DNA of 64,000 bases, taken from positions 1 through 64,000 of the forward strand of contig JABLXQ010000051.1 of NCBI GenBank assembly GCA_013178375.1. The letters run 5' to 3'. This document shows, one piece after another, positions 3,961 through 25,734 of this stretch; position 1 is the first letter of the stretch; every line of letters starts with the position of its first letter. This DNA comes from Gammaproteobacteria bacterium. Its GTDB lineage: Bacteria; Pseudomonadota; Gammaproteobacteria; Pseudomonadales; Ketobacteraceae. A model generated the notes under the pieces. It was not told the DNA's origin, searched no databases, and saw only the letters and a list, made by a program, of their open reading frames with translations. The position numbers and the translations under genes were made by a program.

Positions 3961-4010
3961 AAGACATCTCTAAAAACAGGTCCGACAGCGCCGGTTTTTA
4001 GAGATGTCTT
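3961..4010. repeat. Perfect 17-bp inverted repeat between pilI and pilJ
   Basis: The left arm AAGACATCTCTAAAAAC (3961-3977) is the exact reverse complement of the right arm at 3994-4010, with a 16-base spacer. It lies in the pilI-pilJ gap, inside the Chp operon. In transcript direction no run of U follows the stem, so it is not a typical terminator. It could be an RNA processing or attenuation site, a protein-binding site, or a remnant of a small mobile repeat. The arms are AT-rich, unlike the surrounding DNA. Confidence 0.75.
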
Positions 4011-13843: not shown

Positions 13844-14983
13844 TTACCAGCGCGAGCGCAGTGAATCGTCGTCCTGCAGGGTGAGGCCCTTGGTGGCATC
13901 GGTCAGGGAGTCCGGCGTGGATTCCGAGCCCAGTTTGATCATCAGGCGCAGGTCGTTGGGCGAATCCGCGTGGGCCAGGGCGTCCTCGTAGGTGATCTCG
14001 CCCTTGCTGTAGAGGTCGTACAGGGCCTGGTCGAAGGTCTGCATGCCCAGTTCGCGGGATTTGGCCATCAGCGGTTTCAGCAGGTGCACTTCGCCCTTGC
14101 GGATCAGGTCGGCCATCAGCGGGGTGTTGAGCAGCACTTCGATAACGGCGCGGCGGCTCTTGCCATCCGGGGTAGGAATCAGTTGCTGCGCCACAATTGC
14201 ACGCAGGTTGAGGGACAGATCCATCCACAGCTGGCCGTGGCGGTCCGCCGGGAAGAAGTGAATGATGCGGTCCAGCGCCTGGTTGGCGTTGTTGGCGTGC
14301 AGGGTGGCCAGCACCAGGTGACCGGTTTCCGAAAACGCCACGGCATATTCCATGGTTTCGCGGGTGCGGATCTCGCCGATCATGATTACGTCGGGTGCTT
14401 GCCGCAGGGTGTTTTTCAGGGCGATGTCGAAACTTTCGGTATCCAGCCCCACTTCGCGCTGGGTGACGATGCAGCCCTTGTGCTGGTGGATGTATTCGAT
14501 CGGGTCTTCGATGCTGATGATGTGGCCTTTGGAGTTGATGTTGCGGTGGCCGATCATCGAGGCGAGTGAGGTGGATTTACCGGTACCGGTGGCGCCCACG
14601 AAAATGACGATGCCGCGTTTGGTCATGGCGAGGTCTTTCACCACGGACGGCAGGCCCAGTTCGTCGATGGTGGGAATGCGGGTTTCGATACGGCGCAGCA
14701 CCATGCCGACGAGGTTGCGCTGGTAAAACGCGCTGACCCGGAACCGGCCGATGCCGCGGGCGCTGATGGCGAAGTTGCATTCGTGCGTTTCGATGAACTG
14801 TTTGCGCTGGCCTTCGTTCATCACCGCCAATACGGTTTCGCGGGTTTGCTCCGGACTGAGGGAGGTTTTGGTGACCGGAATGATCCGGCCATTGACCTTC
14901 ATCGAGGGCGGCACGCCCGCCGTGATGAACAGGTCGGAGCCCCCTTTTTCGACCATCAGTTTTAAAAGGTCTTCAAATTCCAT
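13844..14983 (-). CDS. pilU: PilU, type IV pilus retraction ATPase
   Basis: A 379-residue PilT-like secretion ATPase. Walker A is GATGTGKST at 130-138, the Asp box is HIISIEDPIE, Walker B lies in APDVIMIGEIRTRE, and the His box is ETGHLVLATLHAN. The C-terminal extension past the ATPase core and the overall length match Pseudomonas PilU (382). PilU works with PilT in high-force retraction. Unlike the close pilT-pilU spacing in Pseudomonas, here 447 bp with two repeat elements separate them, so PilU may be expressed at a different level. Confidence 0.95.
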   Translation of the reverse strand: MEFEDLLKLMVEKGGSDLFITAGVPPSMKVNGRIIPVTKTSLSPEQTRETVLAVMNEGQRKQFIETHECNFAISARGIGRFRVSAFYQRNLVGMVLRRIETRIPTIDELGLPSVVKDLAMTKRGIVIFVGATGTGKSTSLASMIGHRNINSKGHIISIEDPIEYIHQHKGCIVTQREVGLDTESFDIALKNTLRQAPDVIMIGEIRTRETMEYAVAFSETGHLVLATLHANNANQALDRIIHFFPADRHGQLWMDLSLNLRAIVAQQLIPTPDGKSRRAVIEVLLNTPLMADLIRKGEVHLLKPLMAKSRELGMQTFDQALYDLYSKGEITYEDALAHADSPNDLRLMIKLGSESTPDSLTDATKGLTLQDDDSLRSRW

Positions 14984-15050
14984 CGTGCACCTCGAAGCTT
15001 GTCACTGTGCCGTTGCGTATTTCTATGCTGCATTCTATGAACTAGGTGGC

Positions 15051-15158
15051 GCGAGGTCTGGTGCTTTGATTCCAGACACGCCACGAGTACGTCCCTGTAG
15101 TCTCGTTCGCGGCCATCCATGGCCGCAAACGGTCTGGAATCAAAGCACCAGACCTCGC
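15051..15158. repeat. Nested inverted-repeat element, copy 1 (between pilT and pilU)
   Basis: Two 27-bp arms, 15051-15077 and 15132-15158, are perfect reverse complements; the left arm starts GCGAGGTCTGGTGCTTTGAT. The 54-base interior begins ACGCC and holds two small hairpins: ACGAG...CTCGT with GTCCCT in its loop, and GCGGCCAT-CC-ATGGCCGC (15109-15126). It shares architecture and partial sequence with copies at 15216-15400 and 25631-25734. No coding potential is apparent. It could act as terminator, mRNA stabiliser, processing site or a mobile repeat. Confidence 0.9.
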
Positions 15159-15215
15159 TTGAATTTGTCCGTCGGAGTGTTTTATCAGATTCGGAGTGCT
15201 GTGGTCAGACTCGAA

Positions 15216-15400
15216 GTGGAGTCCGTTACGGCGATTCCGGAACGTCAGCGGCCAAGGGTGAGCAGCCTTTCAGGAAAAGTATACTTTTCCGGTTGCGAAC
15301 GCCGTGAGCATATTCGCGAATGGCTGGACCCGAAGGGGCCGCTGTCGAGCGCACATGGATGTGCTTGTAGCGTGTCCGGAATCGCCGTAACGGACTCCAC
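15216..15400. repeat. Nested inverted-repeat element, copy 2, with expanded loop
   Basis: Arms of 26 bp at 15216-15241 and 15375-15400 are perfect reverse complements (left starts GTGGAGTCCGTTACGGCGAT). It is oriented opposite to copy 1. Next to the right arm is the hairpin GCACAT-GG-ATGTGC (15351-15364), matching the first small hairpin of the family. The second hairpin has stem AGCGGCC (15247-15253) / GGCCGCT (15337-15343), but its loop is about 83 bases instead of a few and contains the perfect 18-bp palindrome GGAAAAGTATACTTTTCC (15273-15290). The element ends 31 bp from the pilT stop codon. Confidence 0.88.
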
Positions 15401-15430
15401 GCCACGCCAGCCGATAAAAACACTTTAACC

Positions 15431-16468
15431 TTACCGGATCGCATCCGGATTTTTCGCCTTCTCGCGCGCCAGCTCCACATTCACCAGACCCTTGCGCACC
15501 AGATCGCCCAGACACTGGTCCAGCGTCTGCATGCCCAGTGAGGCGCCGGTCTGGATCGCGGAATACATCTGCGCGACTTTATCTTCGCGGATCAGGTTGC
15601 GGATCGCCGGGGTGCCGATCATGATTTCGTGCGCCGCCACCCGGCCGCCACCGTTTTTCTTGAGCAGCGTTTGCGACACTACAGCCTGCAACGATTCCGA
15701 CAGCATCGACCTCACCATGGATTTTTCTGCGGCGGGGAACACGTCCACCACCCGGTCGATGGTTTTCGCGGCGCTGGTGGTGTGCAGGGTGCCGAACACC
15801 AGGTGACCGGTTTCGGCGGCGGTCAGCGCGAGGCGGATGGTTTCCAAATCCCGCATCTCGCCCACCAGAATGATGTCAGGGTCTTCCCGCAGGGCTGAGC
15901 GCAGCGCTTCGGCAAACCCCAGGGTGTCCCGGTGCACTTCGCGCTGGTTCACCAGGCATTTCTTGGCTTCGTGCACGAATTCGATCGGGTCCTCGATGGT
16001 GAGGATGTGTTCGTAGCGGGTTTCATTCACGTAGTCGATCATGGCCGCCAGGGTGGTGGACTTGCCCGAACCGGTGGGCCCGGTCACCAGCACCAGACCG
16101 CGGGGAAATTCGCAGATGTTGCGGAATACCTGACCCTGCCCCAGATCTTCCATCGACAATACTTTGGACGGAATGGTCCGGAATACCGCGCCGGCGCCCC
16201 GGTTCTGGTTGAAGGCGTTGACCCGGAAACGGGCCACGCCCGGCACTTCGAACGAGAAGTCGGTTTCGAGGAATTCCTCGTAATCCTTGCGCTGCTTGTC
16301 GTTCATGATGTCGTAGATCAGTCCGTGCACCTGCTTGTGGTCCATCGCCGGCAGATTGATGCGGCGCACATCGCCATCGACCCGGATCATGGGGGGCAGG
16401 CCGGAGGACAGGTGCAAGTCGGACGCGCCGTTTTTCACGCCAAAAGCCAGCAATTCGGTAATGTCCAT
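15431..16468 (-). CDS. pilT: PilT, type IV pilus retraction ATPase
   Basis: A 345-residue hexameric ATPase that depolymerises the pilus for twitching. Walker A GPTGSGKST is at 130-138, the Asp box HILTIEDPIE at 154-163, Walker B around DPDIILVGEMRD (196-207), and the His box TGHLVFGTLHT at 220-230. The C-terminal AIRNLIRE motif needed for retraction in PilT is present. GGAAGG lies 6 bases before the ATG. It is divergent from yggS, as in Pseudomonas. Transcription towards pilU must cross two long inverted repeats. Confidence 0.97.
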   Translation of the reverse strand: MDITELLAFGVKNGASDLHLSSGLPPMIRVDGDVRRINLPAMDHKQVHGLIYDIMNDKQRKDYEEFLETDFSFEVPGVARFRVNAFNQNRGAGAVFRTIPSKVLSMEDLGQGQVFRNICEFPRGLVLVTGPTGSGKSTTLAAMIDYVNETRYEHILTIEDPIEFVHEAKKCLVNQREVHRDTLGFAEALRSALREDPDIILVGEMRDLETIRLALTAAETGHLVFGTLHTTSAAKTIDRVVDVFPAAEKSMVRSMLSESLQAVVSQTLLKKNGGGRVAAHEIMIGTPAIRNLIREDKVAQMYSAIQTGASLGMQTLDQCLGDLVRKGLVNVELAREKAKNPDAIR

Positions 16469-16692
16469 GGGAAACCTTCCGTCGAACTTTCGGGATTGGA
16501 TCAGAGTTGGGTGGTACGTCTTTCAAGCGTAGCAGGAAAACGCCGGGCTTCTGGCCGCCAACATCACCTAATTCATTTCTGTGATTAAATACCATACTTT
16601 CAGGCAGAATGCCTTTTTCGTGTGGATGACGTTGCTTATATACGTGTCTGCGCGCGCCCTGTACCCAACCCGCTGACTGACGACTGCCTGCC

Positions 16693-17376
16693 ATGGACGA
16701 CCCGCTAGCCCTCCACTTTCAACAGACCCTTGCCCGCATCGAGGCCGCCGCCGCGCATTGTCAGCGCCCCGCGCCGCTACTGCTGGCGGTCAGCAAAACC
16801 CAGCCGGCCGCCGCGATCCGTGCCCTGTTTGCGCTGGGGCAGCGGGCGTTCGGCGAGAGTTACTGGCAGGAGGCGCAGGGAAAGCTGGCGCAGCTGGCGG
16901 ACCTGCCCATCGACTGGCATTTCATCGGTCCGCTGCAGGCCAACAAGACGCGGCCCGTGGCGGAACATTTTGCCTGGGCGCATGGCGTGGAGCGTGAGAA
17001 AATCGCCCGCCGCCTGAGTGAGCAGCGCCCGCCGCAGTTGCCGCCGCTGAACATCTGCCTGCAGGTGAATCTGGACGGCGAGGCATCCAAGGCCGGTGTG
17101 GCGCCGGAGGATGTGCTGCCACTGGCGCTGGCGGTAAAGGATCTGCCCAACCTGAAACTGCGGGGGCTGATGTGCATTCCGGCGCCGCGTGCGGATGCGG
17201 CCGAACAGCGTGCCGCGTTCCGGCGCATGGCGGAGCTGCTGGAACAGCTGCGGGCCGCTGGCATCGAGGGGCTGGATACCCTGTCGATGGGCATGTCGGA
17301 TGATCTGGAGGCGGCCATCGCCGAGGGCAGCACGCTGGTGCGGGTGGGCACGGCGATTTTTGGGGAGCGGGGCTAG
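16693..17376 (+). CDS. yggS: YggS-family pyridoxal phosphate homeostasis protein
   Basis: A 227-residue PLP-binding protein with an alanine-racemase-like barrel and no known catalytic activity; the family keeps vitamin B6 pools and amino-acid metabolism in balance. The PLP lysine is K35 in LLAVSKTQ, followed by GQRAFGESYWQE. IDWHFIGPLQANK and the C-terminal LSMGMSDDLEAAI...VRVGTAIFG phosphate-binding part are family signatures. It is divergent from pilT and followed 47 bases later by a membrane protein gene; proC and yggT, its usual partners, lie further on. Confidence 0.95.
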   Translation: MDDPLALHFQQTLARIEAAAAHCQRPAPLLLAVSKTQPAAAIRALFALGQRAFGESYWQEAQGKLAQLADLPIDWHFIGPLQANKTRPVAEHFAWAHGVEREKIARRLSEQRPPQLPPLNICLQVNLDGEASKAGVAPEDVLPLALAVKDLPNLKLRGLMCIPAPRADAAEQRAAFRRMAELLEQLRAAGIEGLDTLSMGMSDDLEAAIAEGSTLVRVGTAIFGERG

Positions 17377-17423
17377 CAGCCGGTCAGTCCCGCTGATTAT
17401 TTTCCTTTCGGATAACAACATCG

Positions 17424-18935
17424 ATGACAGCGAATTTCAGACTGTGGGCCGTGCTGGTCCTGGTGGTGGCGTGCGGATTTGCGTTGCGCACCCACAAGGC
17501 CCTGCAGATCGAGAACTATCCCCACGATGACCAGATCAGCTATCTGGCGGCCAGCGGCAAGCTGGATGATTACGTGCGTTTCATGCCGGTGGACGGCCAG
17601 TTGCGCGTCGCGCCGGCGGCGGAGTGGCAGGCGTTCGCCCGTGCCGACAACGGCCTGGGCCCGGTGCAGTCAGTGCGTGAAATCAGCCAGTCGCTGCAGC
17701 AGCAGGATATTCACCCGCCGCTGTATTTTGTCTGGCTGCGGGGCGTGGTCAGTGTGCTGCCGGATCTCAGCCCGGTTACCGGCTGGTTCAGCAACGCGCT
17801 GTTTTATCTTGCCACGGCTTTCCTGCTGTTTCTGGTGGCGCGCCGTTTGTTGCGCAATCCGCTGGCGGCGGTGCTGGCCACCGGCATCTGGTGCAGTGGT
17901 GTGGCGGCAATCGAAACCAGCATTGTGGCGCGGCATTATGAAATCCTGGCGTTCTTTACCCTGGCCAGCACGCTTTACCTGCTGAGGTTGCTGGACACCG
18001 GCAAAGCCGGGCTGCTGGCGCTGCTGGGATATGGCGTCATTGCCATGCTGGGTTTTCTGGCCAACTACCAGTTTCTCTATCACCTGGGCGCGCTGTCGCT
18101 GGTGATTCTGCTGGCGGAATACCGCCGGCCGGCGCGGGTGCTGCTGTTTGCCGCTGTCACGTTGCTGGCGCTGGGTGCTGCGCTGGCGCTGTACCCAGCA
18201 CTGTTGCAGCAGTCGACAGAAGTGGCAGGCTGGTCACCTGCCGTAACCTGGCCCGACCTGCAGTTCCGCATCAAGAACACGCTGGAGGAAGTGCTGAAAT
18301 TTTGTGTGATCGGTTCGCTGCTGCTGATCTTCGTTGTGGCCAAACGCCGTGATGCATTGCGGCAACTGGATCAGCGCCTGTGGACATTGCTGGTCATCAA
18401 TCTGCTGGGGGTGGCGGGTGTCTATCTCGCCTTCATCGCGCCGCGGCACGCCATGGGTGACCGCTATCTGGCCGCCTTCTGGCCCTTTCTCAGCATGGCG
18501 CTGGCGGCGGCGCTGTTCACGGTCTGGCAAAACAAGTGGTGGCGGGTGGTGGTGATCCTGCTGATCCTGGCGCCTGCCCTGGCCTATCTGAAAAAACCAT
18601 TCAAGCATCCGGCGCCGCCAGAAGAGATTCAGGCAGCACCCGTGGTGATCGCCGATTTCGCCGACCGTGGTGTGTGGCCCTCGATCTTCCTGCATCTGAA
18701 ACCGGAACAGGCCACCGTGGCGGGCAGTCAGGCGGCCCTGCTGGCACAGCCGGCGTGGATCGACACACTGGCAGCGGCTGGCGGTGGCATGTACTGCAGC
18801 GCGGCGGGCCTGAACGGCAACAGCCAGGCGCAGCAGCAACAGGTGCTGGATCTGCTTGGTGAAACATTCACCGTGGAGCCGGTCCGTTCGAAGAACCGGG
18901 GCATCCGGTTTTTCCGCCTGCGCAGCAAAAGCTGA
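17424..18935 (+). CDS. Polytopic membrane protein, GT-C/ArnT-like
   Basis: A 503-residue inner-membrane protein with about ten hydrophobic helices between residues 5 and 390 and a soluble C-terminus. After the first helix comes NYPHDDQISYLAASG, an acidic first-loop motif, and later DIHPPLYFVWLRG, which resembles the HPPLY motif of the PMT/ArnT dolichyl- or undecaprenyl-phosphate-sugar glycosyltransferases. A sugar-transfer role is inferred from this alone; the acceptor cannot be told. It converges on nnrS with only a 9-base gap and is probably co-transcribed with yggS. Confidence 0.78.
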   Translation: MTANFRLWAVLVLVVACGFALRTHKALQIENYPHDDQISYLAASGKLDDYVRFMPVDGQLRVAPAAEWQAFARADNGLGPVQSVREISQSLQQQDIHPPLYFVWLRGVVSVLPDLSPVTGWFSNALFYLATAFLLFLVARRLLRNPLAAVLATGIWCSGVAAIETSIVARHYEILAFFTLASTLYLLRLLDTGKAGLLALLGYGVIAMLGFLANYQFLYHLGALSLVILLAEYRRPARVLLFAAVTLLALGAALALYPALLQQSTEVAGWSPAVTWPDLQFRIKNTLEEVLKFCVIGSLLLIFVVAKRRDALRQLDQRLWTLLVINLLGVAGVYLAFIAPRHAMGDRYLAAFWPFLSMALAAALFTVWQNKWWRVVVILLILAPALAYLKKPFKHPAPPEEIQAAPVVIADFADRGVWPSIFLHLKPEQATVAGSQAALLAQPAWIDTLAAAGGGMYCSAAGLNGNSQAQQQQVLDLLGETFTVEPVRSKNRGIRFFRLRSKS

Positions 18936-18944
18936 AACCGGGGT

Positions 18945-20153
18945 TCAGTGGATGCGGCCATCGACGCGAGCCTGCCACAGGTACGGAATGAGCCGCATGG
19001 CTGGCAGCAAAAAACACAGGCTCCAGCACAGCGCCGCCAGCCCGATCCACAGCGCATATTGGTCAGGCCAGAGGCGAATGGCCAGCAGGCGGAAAAAGGC
19101 GCCCACGCCCATGCTGGCAATGGCCACGCGATCGAGCCTGGTGAACAGGATCTTGCGCCCGGTGTGACCCTGGCTGATGCGGATCAGCATGGCGGGAATG
19201 ATAATGCCCATGCACAGGAACGTGAACGTGTGCGTGGCGGCCATGCCCAGCGCCGGCATCAGTCCGCTGACCCGCGCCGCTTCGAACGCGAGATGCAACA
19301 CCAGCCCCAGATAGCCCGCGTACATGGTGCCGGTGTCGAAGCGGCTCCATCCGGCCAGCGGTTGCCACAGACAATACCGCAACAGCAGCAGGGCCGACGC
19401 CGCGAGCAGCAACCCGGCGGCCAGCGGCGCCGGCAAAAAGGCTTCGAACGCCGCCAGCAGCACCAGCGCCTTGATGGAAAAATCCAGCGCCGGCTGACGC
19501 AGCAGCACAAGCCCCTGACTGTTCTTCATGAATTGCGTGATGGTGCGCTCGAACATCACCACAAATGCAACGCGGAACAACCCCAGCGCCAGCGCACTGC
19601 CTTCACTCCAGGTGGACGGGTTCAACAGCAACAGTTTAGCCAGCAGAAACAGCGGCAGTGCGAGCAGGAAAAAATAATTGTCGCGGAAGCTGTCCTGCCG
19701 GCGATAGCGCACCAGTGTCCACATCAGGTACCCGGCCACATACAGCAGGAACAGGCTGGCGAGCAGATAGCTGCCAACCCGCAGTGCAAGGGACGCATCG
19801 GCGGACAGCACCGGAAAAAACAGGATGACCACGCGCTCCGCCAGCCAGAACAGCACCGCAACGCAGAGGCCGGCGCCGTGCAGCCCGCGCACGTTGACCC
19901 AGTTCTTGCTCGCCGTCAGCAGGAAGCCGCCCAGTACGGCCCAGCCAAACCCAAACAGCATTTCGTGGGCATGCCACTGCACCGGACTCAATCCACTGGC
20001 AGGGCGCGGCAGCCAGCCGCCGAAGAACGCCGCCCACATCAGCGGCAGCAAAATGCCTGCAATGAACGCCAGGGTGAAGAAGGGACGAAACCCCACCAGC
20101 CAGATCGGAGCCTGAAAAAATGATGCGGGTCGAGTGGTGACGGGATTGGACAT
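18945..20153 (-). CDS. nnrS: NnrS family protein
   Basis: A 402-residue membrane protein with about twelve hydrophobic helices. The opening QAPIWLVGFRPFFTLAFIAG, then SPVQWHAHEMLFGFGWAVLGGFLLTA, are typical of NnrS, a heme- and copper-containing protein involved in relief of nitric-oxide stress. MGIIIPAMLIRISQGHTGR is also conserved. No nitric oxide reductase or regulator gene is adjacent, and I see no clear FNR/Dnr box in the 159 bp upstream. The gene is divergent from proC. Confidence 0.9.
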   Translation of the reverse strand: MSNPVTTRPASFFQAPIWLVGFRPFFTLAFIAGILLPLMWAAFFGGWLPRPASGLSPVQWHAHEMLFGFGWAVLGGFLLTASKNWVNVRGLHGAGLCVAVLFWLAERVVILFFPVLSADASLALRVGSYLLASLFLLYVAGYLMWTLVRYRRQDSFRDNYFFLLALPLFLLAKLLLLNPSTWSEGSALALGLFRVAFVVMFERTITQFMKNSQGLVLLRQPALDFSIKALVLLAAFEAFLPAPLAAGLLLAASALLLLRYCLWQPLAGWSRFDTGTMYAGYLGLVLHLAFEAARVSGLMPALGMAATHTFTFLCMGIIIPAMLIRISQGHTGRKILFTRLDRVAIASMGVGAFFRLLAIRLWPDQYALWIGLAALCWSLCFLLPAMRLIPYLWQARVDGRIH

Positions 20154-20312
20154 GGAAGTGCTCCGCAGAAGGAGGGCGCAGGTTGATCGCGCCGTCCATT
20201 CTCGCCCACCCCAGCCCCTGTCACAAATTCATCTCGAAATCGCCACGCTTTTGGCGGACACTTATCACCCGGCTGAAACACAAAACTCCTATAAGCAGGA
20301 ACCTCCTTTCCC

Positions 20313-21122
20313 ATGACCACCAAGATCACCTTCATCGGGGCTGGCAACATGGCCAGCAGTCTCGCCGGCGGCATCATCGCCAAGGGCTACGACCCGCTCC
20401 ACATCACCCTCACCGACGTCAACGACTCCCAACTGGCCCAGGCGCGCAGCAGCCTGCAGGTGAATACCTGCCGCGATAACCTGTCCGCCTGCCAGAAGGC
20501 TGACGTGATCGTGCTGGCGGTGAAGCCGCAGGTGATGGGGGATGTGATCGCGCCGCTGAAAGCCATCGTCAGCCTGCGCAAGCCGCTGATCATAAGCATC
20601 GCCGCCGGCATCACGCTGGCGAAGCTGGAAGGCTGGCTGGGAGCCGATGCCGCCGTCGTACGCTGCATGCCCAACACGCCCGCGCTGGTGGAAGCCGGTG
20701 CCACCGGGCTTTACGCTAATGCCAATGTCAGCCCGTCGCAGCGGGAACAGGCCCGCGCCATCATGGCGTCGGTGGGCCTGGCGCTGTGGGTGGAAAACGA
20801 GGACCAGATCGACGCGGTGACGGCCCTGTCCGGCAGCGGCCCCGCCTATTATTTCCTGGTGATGGAAGCCATGATTGCTGCCGGCAAGGCCATGGGCCTG
20901 TCGGAGCAGGTGGCGCGGCAGCTGACCCTGCAAACCGCGCTGGGATCGGCGCAGATGGCCATTACCGGCAGCGTGGAGCCGGCGGAACTGCGCCGTCGTG
21001 TCACCTCCCCGGGCGGCACCACCGAGCGGGCGATTTCGATCATGGAACAGCAGGGTCTGCGCGACACCTTCCTGCAGGCGCTGAAAGGGGCCTATGACCG
21101 TTCCAAGGAACTGGCGGGTTAA
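20313..21122 (+). CDS. proC: Pyrroline-5-carboxylate reductase
   Basis: A 269-residue NAD(P)H-dependent enzyme making proline from pyrroline-5-carboxylate. The N-terminal Rossmann motif is ITFIGAGNMASSLAGGI. VVRCMPNTPALVEAGATG and the C-terminal signature SGSGPAYYFLVMEAM and VTSPGGTTERAI are diagnostic. The length is normal. It starts an apparent operon with yggT and the DUF167 gene, the same order as in many gammaproteobacteria. Confidence 0.97.
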   Translation: MTTKITFIGAGNMASSLAGGIIAKGYDPLHITLTDVNDSQLAQARSSLQVNTCRDNLSACQKADVIVLAVKPQVMGDVIAPLKAIVSLRKPLIISIAAGITLAKLEGWLGADAAVVRCMPNTPALVEAGATGLYANANVSPSQREQARAIMASVGLALWVENEDQIDAVTALSGSGPAYYFLVMEAMIAAGKAMGLSEQVARQLTLQTALGSAQMAITGSVEPAELRRRVTSPGGTTERAISIMEQQGLRDTFLQALKGAYDRSKELAG

Positions 21123-21182
21123 CATCGCTGCCATTAGTCTTTATGATCTGACCCACCCTGACTGGCCAAGGAACCCTGCCCG

Positions 21183-21758
21183 ATGAATGTAAGCGGCGCT
21201 CTGAACTTCATTCTGATCTACCTTTTTGACGCTTACATCATGGTGGTGTTCACCCGCTTCCTGCTGCAGCTGCTGCGGGCGGATTTCTACAACCCGGTAT
21301 CGCAGTTCGTGGTGAAGGCCACCACGCCGGTGCTGAAACCCCTGCGTCGCGTCATTCCCGGTGTGGGCGGGCTCGACAATGCGTCCCTGGTGCTGATCTT
21401 CACCCTGATCGTGGCCAAGCTGCTGCTGTGGAGTTTCATCAACTTCGGTGCCCTGGCGCCGCTGCCGGATCTGGCGATTCTGCTGCTGAAAACCACGGCT
21501 CTGCTGCTGATCAACTATTTCTTCATAATCCTGCTGGTCAGCGCGGTGATGAGCTGGGTGGCGCAGGGCTATCACCCGGTGGCCGCCGTCCTGTTCCAGC
21601 TGTCCGATCCCATCGTCGCGCCGGTGCGGCGCCTGCTGCCGGCCATGGGTGGCATCGATTTCTCCCCCATGGTGGTCATGCTCGGGCTGTATGTCGTGCG
21701 CATCCTGTTCCAGCTGGACATGGCGTTCGTGGCCGGCATCCCGGTACAAGTGCCCTGA
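21183..21758 (+). CDS. yggT: YggT family membrane protein
   Basis: A 191-residue protein with two YggT repeats, each a pair of hydrophobic helices followed by the signature around NPVSQFVVKATTPVLKPLRRVIP (first) and QLSDPIVAPVRRLLPAMGGIDFSPMV (second). The family has been linked to osmotic stress and to cell-division membrane proteins, but its molecular job is not settled. AAGGA lies 9 bases before the ATG. It follows proC by 60 bases and precedes the DUF167 gene by 15. Confidence 0.93.
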   Translation: MNVSGALNFILIYLFDAYIMVVFTRFLLQLLRADFYNPVSQFVVKATTPVLKPLRRVIPGVGGLDNASLVLIFTLIVAKLLLWSFINFGALAPLPDLAILLLKTTALLLINYFFIILLVSAVMSWVAQGYHPVAAVLFQLSDPIVAPVRRLLPAMGGIDFSPMVVMLGLYVVRILFQLDMAFVAGIPVQVP

Positions 21759-21773
21759 GGGGCGACGTCCGCC

Positions 21774-22067
21774 ATGAGCTGGTACCGCTGGGACGGCGAT
21801 GACCTGATCCTGGACTGCCGCCTGCAACCCAAAGCGTCCGCCGATGAACTGGTGGGCGACCTGGGCGACGAACTGAAGATCCGCATCACCGCCCCGCCGG
21901 TGGACGGCAAGGCCAATGCCCACCTGGTACAGTTTCTGGCCAAGGCCTTTGGCGTCAGCAAAAGCCGGGTGACCATCGAAAAAGGTGAATTGGGGCGCAG
22001 CAAACGGGTGCGCATTCAGGCACCTGGCAAATTTCCTGCTAATCTGAACATAATCAAGCCCTGTTAG
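21774..22067 (+). CDS. yggU: DUF167 (YggU) family protein
   Basis: A 97-residue small protein of the UPF0235/DUF167 family, function unknown. The stretches [51 protein letters not shown] and SKRVRI are the family signature. It ends the proC-yggT-yggU cluster. A stem GCCCTG/CAGGGC surrounds its stop codon (22058-22087) without a T run. Confidence 0.93.
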
Positions 22068-22155
22068 CTCAACCGGTTAGTCAGGGCGGGGGCTGTGCTT
22101 TCCAGCAAAGCATGGCGTTCGTGAGCAGCATTGGGGTTTGAGCGGGCTTCGGGCA

Positions 22156-23361
22156 ATGGATTCGGCGCGTCTTTCCAGTCAGATGGATGCCTATCTTCAG
22201 TGGCGGCAGGAAATCTTCCGCGAACTGACCCGTTACCGTGCCTGGCTGAACGAGCATCATGTGCAGAGTCCGGATCTGGAGAACAAACTCCAGCAGGCCA
22301 TGCAGACGCTCAGGGACGACCGCATCACCATCGCCTTCGTCGGCGAATTCTCCCGCGGCAAAACCGAACTGATCAACGCCCTCTTCTTCGCCCATTACGG
22401 CACCCGTATTTTGCCGTCCGGTGCGGGCCGCACCACCATGTGTCCCACCGAACTTTTCTTCGACCAGCGTGCCCAGGACAGCTATATCCGCCTGCTGCCC
22501 ATCGAAACCCGCATGGTCGGCTCCAGCATCGCCAGCTTTCGCAAGATTCCCGAAAAATGGGTTTTGGTGCCGCTCAACGCCAAAGATCCCAAGATGATGA
22601 AAAAGGCGTTTGCGGAAGTGGCCAACAGCAAGGCCGTCAGCGCCAATGAAGCGGCCGCCATGGGTTTTCAGGTGGAATTGCTGGAACCGGCACCGGACAA
22701 GCCCGACAAGGTGCTGATCCCGGCCTGGCGTCACGCCATGATCAGTTTCGATCACCCGCTGCTGCGGCAGGGGCTCACCATCATCGACACGCCGGGGTTG
22801 AATGCGCTGGGCTGCGAGCCGGAACTGACCTTCAGCCTGCTGCCGGAAGCGCAATCGATTCTGTTGCTGCTGTCGGCGTCCACTGGTGTCAGCGCCACCG
22901 ATCTGGATATCTGGAACCGTCATATCCGCGATCTGGCGTTGCGCGAATCCACCGGCGTGTATGCGGTGCTGAATAAGATCGATGCCGTGTGGGATGAACT
23001 GGAAAGTGACGCCTACAACCAGAAGGCGCTCGGTACCATCCGTGCCCAGTGTGCGCGCCAGCTGTCGATCGCGCCGGACGAAATTCTTACCGTGTCAGCG
23101 AAAGAAGGACTGCTGGCCCAGGTGAGCGGCAATCAGGCGCGATTGCAGAAGAGCCAGTTGCCGGCGCTGGAGGAATTGCTGTCCAACGACATGATGCGGC
23201 GCAAGGAATTGCTGATCCAGAAAAGTGTGATCCGCGACATTCATGCCTTGCTGCACGGCAGCAAGAAAACCCTGTTGCGCCGGCGCGAAAATGCGCTGGA
23301 AGAACTCAAGGTAATGAAGTCCGACGAGTCCAATCGCAAGGAGCAGCTGGACAACCGGTGA
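22156..23361 (+). CDS. Dynamin-family GTPase, N-terminal GTPase half (frameshifted)
   Basis: A 401-residue GTPase segment. The P-loop is GEFSRGKTELINAL, switch regions include GAGRTTMCPTEL, G3 is IIDTPGLNALG, and G4 is VLNKIDAVWDE. Bacterial dynamin-like proteins remodel or stabilise membranes. The frame stops at TGA 23359-23361 inside a coiled-coil region; the expected continuation lies in the -1 frame from 23358. Together they give about 660 residues, the usual size of this family in related bacteria. Adding one G to the GG at 23357-23358 would restore a single frame. I chose ATG 22156; a TTG six codons earlier is possible. No ribosome site is strong. Confidence 0.8.
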   Translation: MDSARLSSQMDAYLQWRQEIFRELTRYRAWLNEHHVQSPDLENKLQQAMQTLRDDRITIAFVGEFSRGKTELINALFFAHYGTRILPSGAGRTTMCPTELFFDQRAQDSYIRLLPIETRMVGSSIASFRKIPEKWVLVPLNAKDPKMMKKAFAEVANSKAVSANEAAAMGFQVELLEPAPDKPDKVLIPAWRHAMISFDHPLLRQGLTIIDTPGLNALGCEPELTFSLLPEAQSILLLLSASTGVSATDLDIWNRHIRDLALRESTGVYAVLNKIDAVWDELESDAYNQKALGTIRAQCARQLSIAPDEILTVSAKEGLLAQVSGNQARLQKSQLPALEELLSNDMMRRKELLIQKSVIRDIHALLHGSKKTLLRRRENALEELKVMKSDESNRKEQLDNR

Positions 23362-24143
23362 CCCATGCCAAGGCCGAACAGGGTTTCTATCACAAGAAAC
23401 TGATCCTGCTGAAAACCAGCCGCAAGATGATCGAGCGCGAGGGCACGCTGATGCTGGAGCCGGTGAGCCAGGTGCGGCTGGATACCTATCTGAAGGAAGC
23501 CGGCAAGGCGCTGACATCGAGCTGGACCATCGTCGGCATGAACAACGCCATCGACACTTTTTTTGACCGGCTGAAAGCGGACATGAGCGCACTGGCGCAG
23601 AAACAGGAACAGATCCAGATCATGGTGGCCGATATCTATGCCCGCTACGAGGCAGAACAGGGGCTGGCGCCGCTGGATTATCCCCGTTTCAGTCCGAAGG
23701 AATATCTGACGCGCCTGGATGACCTGCGCGCCAAATCCGGCAGTTTCCGTCGCAACCTGCGCAAGCTGCTGACTGAGCAGAAATCCACGTCAAAGCGGTT
23801 TCTGGCGACGGTGGTCAACGAGGGTTCCAGCATTTACCGTTTGTATGAGCGCAGCGGCCGCGACTGGCTCAACAATGTGCTGATGCCGCTGTTCCAGAAT
23901 GCCCAGGAACAAAAACACCTGCTGGACGAGCATGTGCAGAAGCTGCGGCTGATGGCCAGTGTCGACGGCAATGCCGCCGAGCGTGTCGAGCAGATGGAAG
24001 TGATGCTGAAGGATGTCGAAACCCAGATCGCGGAAGTGGAGGACATGATCAAGGGCCTGCGCAAGCCGGCCCCGATCCATCAGCAACGCAAGGTGATTCC
24101 GCTGATCACCTCGCAGTTCTCGCCGGCGCCGCTGAAAAAATAG
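23358..24143 (+). CDS. Dynamin-family GTPase, C-terminal coiled-coil half (frameshifted or coupled)
   Basis: This 261-residue segment is the natural continuation of the GTPase half in the -1 frame: helical stalk (KLILLKTSRKMIEREG), then RLDTYLKEAGKALTSSWTIVG and a C-terminal coiled coil (HLLDEHVQKLRLMAS...VEQMEVMLKDVETQIAEVEDMI). It has no GTPase motifs of its own. A GTG at 23358 overlaps the upstream TGA in a GTGA arrangement, so separate coupled translation is formally possible, but the nearest AAGGAG is about 14 bases away. A single-base deletion, real or a sequence error, is the simpler reading. It ends 22 bases from the convergent aldehyde dehydrogenase gene. Confidence 0.7.
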   Translation: MTHAKAEQGFYHKKLILLKTSRKMIEREGTLMLEPVSQVRLDTYLKEAGKALTSSWTIVGMNNAIDTFFDRLKADMSALAQKQEQIQIMVADIYARYEAEQGLAPLDYPRFSPKEYLTRLDDLRAKSGSFRRNLRKLLTEQKSTSKRFLATVVNEGSSIYRLYERSGRDWLNNVLMPLFQNAQEQKHLLDEHVQKLRLMASVDGNAAERVEQMEVMLKDVETQIAEVEDMIKGLRKPAPIHQQRKVIPLITSQFSPAPLKK

Positions 24144-24165
24144 CGGCGCCATTCTACTACTGCTG

Positions 24166-25596
24166 CTACTGCGGCGTGCGCATTACCATCAGCCGCAATT
24201 CCGTCATGTCGTGCATGGCCCAGCGAATGCCTTCGCGGCCCAGCCCGCTGTCCTTCACGCCGCCGTACGGCATGTGATCCACCCGCCACGACGGCACATC
24301 ACCAATCACCACGCCACCCACTTCCAGTTCGTCCCAGGCTTTGTGCGCCTTGTACAGATCGCGGGTGAAAATGCCGGCCTGCAAACCGAAGCGGCTGTTG
24401 TTCACGTCTTTCAACACCTGATCGAAATCGGTGAATTTCGACAGGATCGCCAACGGACCGAACGCTTCCTCGGCGCAGGCATTTTGTTGCGAGTCGACAT
24501 TTTCCAGCAGCGTCGCTTCCAGCATGTTGCCCTGGCGCTGGCCACCGCACAGCAGCGTGGCGCCGGACTCAATGGCTTCGTTGATCCAGCCGTGCAGACG
24601 TTTGGCTTCGCCTTCGCTGATCATGGGGCCGATGAAAGTGTCGGGATTTTTCGGGTCGCCGCTTTTCAGTTGTTTTGCTGCGGCAACCAGTTTCGATTTG
24701 AGTTGTTCGTAAATGTCGGCGTGGGCATAAATGCGCTGCACGCTGATGCAGCTCTGCCCCGACTGGTAGAAAGCGCCGATGATGATGCGCTTCACTGCGT
24801 CGTCGATGTCCCAGTCTTTGTCCACCACACAGGCGGCGTTGCCACCCAGTTCCAGTATCACGGGTTTTTTACCGGCGCGGGCTTTCAGATTCCAGCCCAC
24901 ATCCGGCGAGCCGGTGAAGCTGAGCAGTTTCAGGCGCGGATCTTCGGTGAGCAGATCCGCGCTGTCGCGGCGACAGGGCAGAATCGAAAACGCGCCTTTG
25001 GGCAGATTGGTTTCCGCCAGGATTTCACCGATGAGAATGGCACCGATGGGCGTGAGGCTGGCGGGCTTCAGCACGAACGGGCAACCCACCGCAATCGCCG
25101 GCGCCACTTTGTGTGCAGCGAGATTCAATGGAAAGTTGAACGGGCTGATGAAAGCGCAGGGGCCGATGGGCACGCGCTTGGTCATGCCGTAATAACCTTT
25201 GGCGCGGGCGCTGATATCGAGTGGAATGGTTTCACCGTACAGGCGCGACACTTCTTCCGCTGCAATCTTGAAGGTGTCGATCAGGCGCGTCACTTCACCC
25301 TTGGCGTCATTGATGGGTTTGCCGGCTTCAACGCAAAGCGCATAGGCCAGTTCGTCGAAGCGTTCGCGGAAACGTTTCACGCAATGTTCCAGCACGGCCT
25401 GCTTTTCGAAGACGGGCATTTTGCGCATTGCTTCTGCGGCGTCGCAGGCGGCGGCAATGGCTTTGTCGAGGGTGGCCGGGTCGGCCTGCGCCACTTCGCA
25501 TGCCAGTTCTCCGCTGAACTTGTCATGCACTTTCAGATCGCGGTTGGCGTAAACGGCTTCGTTGGCGAGGTAGTAGGGGTAGTGATTGTTCAACAT
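24166..25596 (-). CDS. NAD(P)-dependent aldehyde dehydrogenase
   Basis: A 476-residue ALDH-superfamily enzyme oxidising an aldehyde to the acid. Catalytic Cys283 is in GQSCISVQR, Glu249 in ILELGG, Asn154 in SPFNFPL, and the nucleotide-binding turn is SFTGSPDVG. The GQxCIxVQR form resembles lactaldehyde/phosphonoacetaldehyde-type ALDHs; the substrate cannot be set from sequence. An ATG at 25596 with AGGA 6 bases upstream is used; 25 further open codons would run into the repeat element. It lies downstream of an iron alcohol dehydrogenase and a thioesterase on the same strand, which suggests an alcohol-to-acid route. Confidence 0.92.
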   Translation of the reverse strand: MLNNHYPYYLANEAVYANRDLKVHDKFSGELACEVAQADPATLDKAIAAACDAAEAMRKMPVFEKQAVLEHCVKRFRERFDELAYALCVEAGKPINDAKGEVTRLIDTFKIAAEEVSRLYGETIPLDISARAKGYYGMTKRVPIGPCAFISPFNFPLNLAAHKVAPAIAVGCPFVLKPASLTPIGAILIGEILAETNLPKGAFSILPCRRDSADLLTEDPRLKLLSFTGSPDVGWNLKARAGKKPVILELGGNAACVVDKDWDIDDAVKRIIIGAFYQSGQSCISVQRIYAHADIYEQLKSKLVAAAKQLKSGDPKNPDTFIGPMISEGEAKRLHGWINEAIESGATLLCGGQRQGNMLEATLLENVDSQQNACAEEAFGPLAILSKFTDFDQVLKDVNNSRFGLQAGIFTRDLYKAHKAWDELEVGGVVIGDVPSWRVDHMPYGGVKDSGLGREGIRWAMHDMTELRLMVMRTPQ

Positions 25597-25630
25597 GTTG
25601 AATCCTGTGATGCGAATGTCCGGTGCCTGC

Positions 25631-25734
25631 GCCGGGGAGGTTACGCCTTCCTGGACACGCCGTAAACCCATCCCTGGGGGCTGCGCAGCGGCATCCCTGC
25701 CGCTGAGCGTCCAGGAAGGCGTAACCTCCCCGGC
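25631..25734. repeat. Nested inverted-repeat element, copy 3 (between thioesterase and aldehyde dehydrogenase genes)
   Basis: Perfectly complementary 26-bp arms at 25631-25656 and 25709-25734 (left starts GCCGGGGAGGTTACGCCTTC) enclose 52 bases. The interior begins ACGCC, then has a CCCATCCCTGGG hairpin and GCGGCA-TCCC-TGCCGC, the same order as copy 1. The right arm ends only 8 bases from the stop codon of the thioesterase gene, so the structure forms the 3' end of that message and the leader of the aldehyde dehydrogenase gene. Confidence 0.9.

Follow-up and report, generated by a model that had tools for sequence, protein, structure and literature searches.

The TwoAYGGAY RNA element (RF01731), two AYGGAY-loop hairpins on a long stem, is recorded for human gut, γ-Proteobacteria and Clostridiales (PMC2864571), and one account describes its outer stem as "not well conserved" (PMC4333381). 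Ysr224 (Yersinia sRNA 224; RF02770) appears in a list of the 20 sRNAs of highest prevalence (PMC9029176) and is reported from Y. ruckeri as multi-copy, with differing expression (PMC12112432). Hairpins with GGA loops are also the targets of CsrA, for which SELEX gave the consensus RUACARGGAUGU and an ANGGAN hexaloop with variable N, mostly on hairpins of four or fewer pairs, with dual sites spaced 10–63 nt apart and an optimum above 18 (PMC7652899). CsrA sponges include CsrB and RsmZ, and we also considered as a comparison the Xanthomonas RsmU, a 3′-UTR sponge of RsmA (PMC7694677). At the DNA level, reverse-complement copying between arms is described as keeping stems paired (PMC8794818), and arm homogenisation with spacer inversion is described as well (PMC8604942).

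We analyzed a window of 64,000 nucleotides from a Ketobacteraceae genome (contig JABLXQ010000051.1, positions 1 to 64,000). Judged by resemblance in sequence and structure, the three long hairpins it contains are copies of the known, little-studied TwoAYGGAY/Ysr224 RNA element, with the following features:

15051–15158, predicted RNA strand minus: copy 1, perfect 27-bp arms at 15051–15077 and 15132–15158 (100%)
15090–15097, minus: hairpin-1 loop of copy 1, reads CAGGGACG (from the sequence)
15114–15121, minus: hairpin-2 loop of copy 1, reads CATGGATG (from the sequence)
15216–15400, predicted RNA strand plus: copy 2, long form, perfect 26-bp arms at 15216–15241 and 15375–15400 (100%)
15354–15361, plus: hairpin-1 loop of copy 2, reads CATGGATG (from the sequence and the loose pattern)
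25631–25734, predicted RNA strand minus: copy 3, perfect 26-bp arms at 25631–25656 and 25709–25734 (100%)
25669–25676, minus: hairpin-1 loop of copy 3, reads CAGGGATG (from the sequence)
25692–25699, minus: hairpin-2 loop of copy 3, reads CAGGGATG (from the sequence)

The three inverted repeats with perfect arms of 26–27 bp reported in an earlier note on this DNA are thus confirmed. When the window was letter-shuffled 20 times, an inverted repeat of ≥13 bp with a spacer of up to 400 turned up once in each of four shuffles and never in the other 16; RNA folding z-scores of the copies were −9.3 to −11.4 on either strand. The same note saw one shared, "nested" plan. The copies do form one family, but copy 2 lies on the strand opposite to copies 1 and 3, with its core on the minus strand (where the loose pattern matches it at 15347–15373), and its second hairpin is enlarged by ~77 nt and lacks its GGA loop, leaving a single one; nesting applies only in the sense that two small hairpins sit within each long stem. 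In copies 1 and 3 each of the two hairpins ends in a CANGGANG loop, in keeping with the AYGGAY-type two-hairpin plan, although both copy 3 loops and one copy 1 loop are AGGGAY, not strict AYGGAY.

The earlier note knew of no named family, but a name exists. RF01731 matched copy 1 over its full length (15046–15163, minus; 37.8 bits, E = 2e-4; gathering threshold 43 bits), and left copies 2 (E up to 10) and 3 (E up to 1) unmatched. RF02770 matches the same core on the other strand, in the window at copy 3 (25609–25712, plus; 21.3 bits, E = 0.014). All of these matches in the window fall below gathering. RF01731 exceeded gathering for one copy elsewhere in this genome (G000), four in G001 and one in Marinobacter G018, and in none of 14 control genomes. 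It matched none of nine loci from other genera, three of which match RF02770 below gathering, and at E 0.001 found nothing in G017, G020, G025 and G026 despite 17–66 strict-pattern copies in each, a range from 12 genomes chosen for having a match. The element here resembles TwoAYGGAY in its two AYGGAY-loop hairpins on a long stem, on the same strand, with a full-length model match for copy 1 and some others; it departs from TwoAYGGAY as described in the accounts cited above in that its stem has few or no mismatches but differs from locus to locus, tens of copies occur per genome, and the model misses many. With Ysr224 it shares an identical core and the multi-copy habit, but the catalogue entry of Ysr224 is for the opposite strand, and because no RF02770 score reached the gathering threshold of 70 bits (best 44.7, L123) we did not file the element there although the core agrees. 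We suggest that the two Rfam entries are the two strands of one element.

The strict pattern occurs at 41 places in this genome, at 34 in its congener and at none in the reversed control. Across the class at least one match was found in 45 of 274 genomes, several of the single matches (e.g., G141, G314, G347) being unlike the element, and at least two in 19 of 274. Of the three window copies, the loose pattern picks up copy 2 alone and the strict pattern copy 3 alone, so both undercount; at least one of the 55 elements gathered from this genome is false (L015). The dispersed family proposed in the earlier note therefore stands, since further copies were searched for and found in plenty. Its guess of marine γ-proteobacteria holds for Marinobacter, Microbulbifer, Glaciecola and Shewanella, in which elements with arms occur, but is too narrow, as Stenotrophomonas also carries the element, arms included.

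Read on the TwoAYGGAY strand, the loops give CANGGANG, which is the CsrA/RsmE code. At an orthologous Stenotrophomonas site, where no loop pattern was imposed, CANGGANG stands in hairpin 1 at 40 and in hairpin 2 at 38 of 41 element-keeping loci (eight scar or empty loci and the unplaced L392 being left out). Both motifs, 23–24 nt apart, occur in 49 of 54 elements of this genome, a tally in which hairpin 1, but not hairpin 2, belonged to the search pattern. The element extractor demanded CANGGA in hairpin 1, which biases for hairpin 1 a loop tally that the pattern-free count above repeats, and the Stenotrophomonas alignment used below. Among 24 young BLAST-found copies in G182, the four free N positions account for 19 of 29 core differences and the remaining 36 positions outside the loop motifs for 10, and the 12 fixed loop positions show none; as distinct changes the three classes number four, four and none. 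In sequence, then, the elements have what is looked for in a CsrA/RsmA RNA: ANGGAN hexaloops, closed by C-G and spaced within 10–63 nt. Against this, hairpin 2 has a longer stem than most of the SELEX hairpins cited. A csrA gene was present in 25 of 25 genomes queried, and since these include element-free genomes its presence does not discriminate. The predicted CsrA-binding GGA hairpins would work like those of CsrB and RsmZ, but those, as generally described, are sRNAs with numerous CsrA sites each, whereas in this family the sites are spread over many two-loop loci.

The arms had been said to differ between copies yet align. In elements of this genome with cores at least 90% alike, they agree over the nine bases beside the core (identity 0.46–1.0), but beyond base 9 identity is mostly 0.25–0.41, composition alone giving 0.27, with exceptions of 0.54 and 0.50 at bases 17 and 18; overall arm identity is ~0.4–0.5 whatever the core identity. 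Paired change without loss of pairing is borne out at the orthologous Stenotrophomonas site, where 18 of 18 variable arm pairs changed on both sides. The covariation score there was 0.463, against 0.142 when shuffled (reached in 0 of 500 shuffles) and 0.03–0.09 when slid, in an alignment of 25 of 50 loci, restricted to orthologues whose core spans 52 bases and whose arms reach 26 bp or more; a second measure at this site, taking in further pair types, did not exceed the shuffles (237/500). One-sided stem changes in 171 elements were asymmetric between strands: G-U pairs arose 79 times on the strand opposite the core and 14 times on the core strand (60 and 8 without the partly orthologous Stenotrophomonas loci of six genomes), and G-A or G-G pairs 48 and 13 times. 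Viral loci and the orthologous site did not enter this tally, nor did mismatches at most three bases from the outer arm end; strand-biased mutation could partly mimic the wobble asymmetry. Covariation and asymmetry support selection on structure, one of the two causes put forward in the earlier note.

The other, a copying mechanism that rewrites both arms, finds support in G182. Its 34 copies (four of 38, with indels, were left out) contain 10 one-sided and five two-sided changed pairs, all five re-paired, where independence predicts ~0.02 two-sided changes. Relative to its flanks the arm-core-arm block is flipped in six of 33 copies, unflipped in 26 and undetermined in one, after copies with an identical 70-base junction were dropped. 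The two-sided excess and the flipped blocks are as template switching between arms predicts. Ordinary compensatory evolution through G-U intermediates could instead act without arm copying: most one-sided changes of wobble type are on the RNA strand, and the nearest Stenotrophomonas pairs show 17 one-sided differences (some counted repeatedly) to 14 two-sided, which compensation would allow. We consider compensation by itself rather unlikely, as, with arms diverged by <1%, 5 of 15 changed pairs in G182 are two-sided, no wobble path exists for four of these five, and cores flip in the same family. Template switching, presumably at replication, would resemble the published maintenance of RNA hairpins in that inter-arm copying preserves pairing; the published cases cited concern RNA genes and yeast genes, unlike the dispersed bacterial repeat considered here. 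Loci L385–L390 have hairpin deletions at one site with differing end points, read by eye as deletion scars.

The most probable reading is that these RNA elements bind CsrA and that selection and arm copying together keep their stems paired. The strand opposite the 'ACGCC' core would fold into a long stem that opens, at a three-way junction, into the two CANGGANG-loop hairpins; upon intergenic transcription, one CsrA/RsmA dimer could clamp both loops of an element, and dozens of copies together would form scattered CsrA sites, acting as a sponge or in 3′-end control. The long stem would present the loops and be needed merely as a stem, so that its letters could vary as long as the two arms change together. 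Two processes would keep it paired: broken stems would be selected against, G-U pairs on the RNA strand serving as intermediates, and template switching at the DNA level would recopy one inverted arm from its partner. Such switching may also flip the core and sometimes delete a hairpin, and occasional recopying of this kind is probably part of the reason why the stem stays paired while its letters change. More tentatively, and in our view less likely than not, the elements may constitute a genome-wide CsrA titration array, tens of two-site RNAs whose stems are rewritten and cores flipped by template switching, toggling the GGA-loop strand; if so, a mutational process, and not selection alone, preserves RNA structure. 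Binding of a CsrA dimer is a concrete prediction for a widespread, hardly characterized repeat, which also provides a young-to-old natural series for asking whether compensatory changes in RNA stems are two selected mutations or one templated event.

REP/REPIN systems combine short hairpins, marked by a conserved tetranucleotide at the foot, with a RAYT transposase, and folded single-stranded DNA, too, accommodates G-T and G-A pairs. The strand asymmetry would thus fit a selfish DNA repeat, REP/REPIN-like or folded as single strand, whose hairpins are recognized by a one-strand transposase; the copies in G182 disperse as whole units, and the arms in G364 are similar between copies. We regard such a repeat as improbable: a hand count in G087, with the origin assumed at base 1, showed no replication-strand preference (9 plus and 8 minus, then 11 plus and 5 minus), none of the 120 first-listed viral pattern matches has arms, on which ground phage carriage was also rejected, and loop variation falls on the positions not fixed by the CsrA code. 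As to the origin of the arms, inverted duplication of the target was rejected: the element-free G001 site of the L006/L116 pair has no arm, so the arms arrived with the element or the whole element was deleted. That arms are always unique to their locus is true in this genome but false in G182, where nine retrieved copies have nearly identical 31-bp arms; arms can thus spread with the element and diverge later.

Very unlikely, finally, are bidirectional intrinsic terminators, long G+C-rich hairpins after genes with an incidental core, since, although a gene 3′ end adjoins 50 of 53 elements in this genome (three are divergent) and some arms have A/T-rich outer ends (e.g., L023, L024), no T run follows the element (T at 0.13–0.24 per position in the RNA direction; in the other direction 0.57 at the first base, then 0.24–0.37), two conserved CANGGANG loops would be unnecessary, and in Stenotrophomonas gene calling placed 14 of 42 elements between divergent genes. 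The last figure also removes 3′-end placement as a general rule, strong as it is in this genome. For the CsrA-binding elements that we favor, gene orientation was co-directional with the RNA strand in 49 cases and opposed in 31, a weak bias (p ~ 0.06), doublets being counted twice in these gene-context tallies.

The three inverted repeats of the window are real: their arms pair perfectly over 27, 26 and 26 bp, and all three fold far better than shuffled sequence. In each, two arms enclose a core of two small hairpins; the core strand reads ACGCC, and its complement, the anti-core strand, is taken as the RNA strand. Copies 1 and 2 share the intergenic stretch between a pilT-type and a pilU-type gene, and copy 3 is flanked by an aldehyde-dehydrogenase-type and a thioesterase-type gene (all names read from translations); the core of copy 2 lies on the strand opposite to those of copies 1 and 3.

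Genes and elements of the window
13844-14983, minus strand, pilU-type gene
15051-15158, element copy 1
15216-15400, element copy 2
15431-16468, minus strand, pilT-type gene
25631-25734, element copy 3

The earlier note knew of no named family, but a name exists. On the minus strand, copy 1 matched the full length of the Rfam model RF01731 TwoAYGGAY (37.8 bits against a gathering score of 43, E=2e-4); the model matched neither copy 2, in the stretch shared with copy 1, nor copy 3. Copy 3 matched RF02770 Ysr224 at 21.3 bits, below the gathering score. Ysr224 describes the opposite strand of the same core and was found, below gathering, in 3 of 9 loci, none of which RF01731 matched. In genome searches at E 0.001, RF01731 returned 4 copies in the genome of the window (G000; 1 over gathering), 9 in its congener G001 (4 over gathering) and 8 in Marinobacter G018 (1 over gathering), and none in G008, G017, G020, G025, G026 or 14 control genomes. 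Passages of earlier papers predict TwoAYGGAY to be a CsrA-binding sRNA (PMC4333381), call it relatively unexplored (PMC11661157), report Ysr224 in multiple copies (PMC12112432) and rank it among the most prevalent sRNAs (PMC9029176). We found no publication on TwoAYGGAY stem evolution in the literature searched, and more may be in print. With the family itself already named, the main interest lies in the mode of stem evolution and in how strongly CsrA binding is predicted.

That the copies form one family, with more than three members, held: the same core with arms recurs at many further loci of G000. In this genome (6.32 Mb, 95 contigs) a loose core pattern found 66 places (15 for the reversed control), and a strict two-hairpin pattern found 41, with 34 in G001, the sole congener compared, and 0 for the control. 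Both undercount, since of the window copies the loose pattern finds only copy 2 and the strict only copy 3. A first extraction script gave 47 distinct arm-bearing sequences and a later one 55 elements in G000, at least one of them false (L015). The core, mostly 52-56 bp, is near-identical among many loci; the arms, 20-38 bp, differ at each locus.

A scan of named genomes matched at least 118 stretches. Among the matches listed, a script that overlooked some elements whose arms pair imperfectly found perfect or near-perfect arms around the same core in Marinobacter, Microbulbifer, Stenotrophomonas, Glaciecola, Shewanella and others, and no arms in distant-phylum matches such as L117, L120 and L124. 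In 12 genomes picked for already having a match, the strict count was lowest in Alteromonas halophila (2) and highest in an Oceanisphaera (66); the control gave 0. Class-wide, by hand tally, 45 of 274 genomes had at least one strict match, several of the single ones unlike the element in appearance, and 19 had at least two; the control matched once, in one genome. A Legionellaceae MAG contig (L163) carries a similar core within 68-bp arms with a single mismatch, the longest seen, and an ordinary cobalamin riboswitch (L123:5438-5667) shares a contig with one element.

The arms covary with pairing kept, as the earlier note proposed. We traced one intergenic site across 91 Stenotrophomonas genomes, placing 49 of 50 loci. 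In a 25-sequence alignment 93.8% of pairing cells were paired (77.4 when shuffled), the covariation score was 0.463 (shuffled 0.142, 0/500; slid 0.03-0.09), and all 18 variable arm-helix pairs had changed on both sides; the count of further pair types was not above shuffles (237/500). As we read the loci of this site, L385-L390 show deletion scars with differing end points, L373 is a recombinant with arms that have ceased to match, and L391 bears an insertion within one arm. The L391 insert exceeds 1 kb, and the query parts overlap by 3 bases, as expected of a 3-bp target duplication. On the same reading, the second hairpin has been swapped as a block across different arm backgrounds (L360, L366, L379, L384).

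Arm copying is indicated in G182, a genome with a young element family: the element block stands at 40 places, at 32 of which (hand tally) a 201-base query aligns over 162-201 bases with 92-100% identity, and the unit is enclosed by a further outer inverted repeat. At L463-L490 this repeat measures about 30 bp and stands in both orientations relative to the flanks. Against a reference copy, 34 equal-length copies showed 15 changed arm pairs, 10 one-sided and 5 two-sided, where independent mutation would give an estimated 0.02 or so two-sided changes. All five re-paired, four with no possible wobble intermediate, as in C-G to G-C or G-C to T-A, and in L486 a one-base deletion is matched in both arms. 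Relative to its flanks, the arm-core-arm block was flipped in 6 of 33 copies, unflipped in 26 and ambiguous in 1. Two papers describe such marks as left by template switching between inverted repeats (PMC8794818, PMC8604942), and we conclude that the two-sided changes and flips of G182 are marks of that process. Ordinary compensation also has room, given the nearest Stenotrophomonas pairs, which differ by 14 two-sided and 17 one-sided changes, some of the latter counted repeatedly (that of L374 four times). Copies within one genome tend to share their second-hairpin stem, which is uniform in G182 (14/14 copies among the matches listed, 38 counted) and common to 9 of 11 copies of another genome, G364; this suggests common descent or homogenisation.

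The arms also indicate the RNA strand. Across 171 elements, one-sided changes left a G-U pair on the anti-core strand in 79 cases and on the core strand in 14 (p about 4e-12, assuming independent changes); with the Stenotrophomonas loci removed, which are partly orthologous, the figures are 60 and 8. Mismatches of the G-A and G-G types favour the same strand (48 vs 13), and the anti-core fold is the more stable in 3/3 window copies. Loops on this strand read CANGGANG. The initial tally used elements extracted by a pattern demanding CANGGA in hairpin 1, and we recounted pattern-free: among 41 element-keeping Stenotrophomonas loci, CANGGANG stands in hairpin 1 in 40 (exception L395) and in hairpin 2 in 38 (exceptions L398, L399 and the recombinant L373, from which hairpin 2 is lost). 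Among 24 young G182 copies, retrieved by BLAST with the whole unit, there were 29 core differences: 19 at the four N positions, 0 at the twelve fixed positions of the loops and 10 among the remaining 36 positions, or 4, 0 and 4 as distinct changes because many are shared between copies. The four N positions are exactly those at which the CsrA/RsmE consensus, as given in a passage of PMC7652899, does not fix the base, and both motifs occur in 49 of 54 G000 elements, 23-24 nt apart. Loop conservation, free-position variation and motif spacing make CsrA binding to the element loops likely, as a prediction from sequence.

Relative to the RNA strand, and with a second gene caller, 148 elements lay ++ 49, -- 31, convergent 46 and divergent 22 times, counted at element sites alone, leaving out 22 locus-edge elements and one overlap and counting doublets twice. 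No T run was found after the element. The elements are therefore intergenic, often after genes, weakly oriented and not standard terminators; occasional block flipping may account for the weak orientation. Between G000 and G001, three loci (L006, L027, L055) face a counterpart site without element, which in two genomes fits insertion or deletion, and two (L001, L037) face an element in opposite orientation, that of L001 being of another core class. At the pilU-pilT site G001 holds an element in the same orientation, whose arms by hand count agree with those of copy 2 at 19 of 29 positions. The arms of copy 2 form 26 unbroken pairs; those of the G001 element have a single mismatch in 27.

At L002, L025, L033 and window 15216-15400 the element is a long form: hairpin 2 carries a 75-80 nt insert, and the second GGA loop is altered. 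Several genomes repeatedly show doublets of inverted orientation about 160-360 bases apart, usually with the plus-strand core first and the minus-strand core second, the order found at window 15051-15400. Apart from these elements, window 3961-4010 holds a perfect inverted repeat (17-bp arms, 16-base spacer) that lacks the TwoAYGGAY/Ysr224 core.
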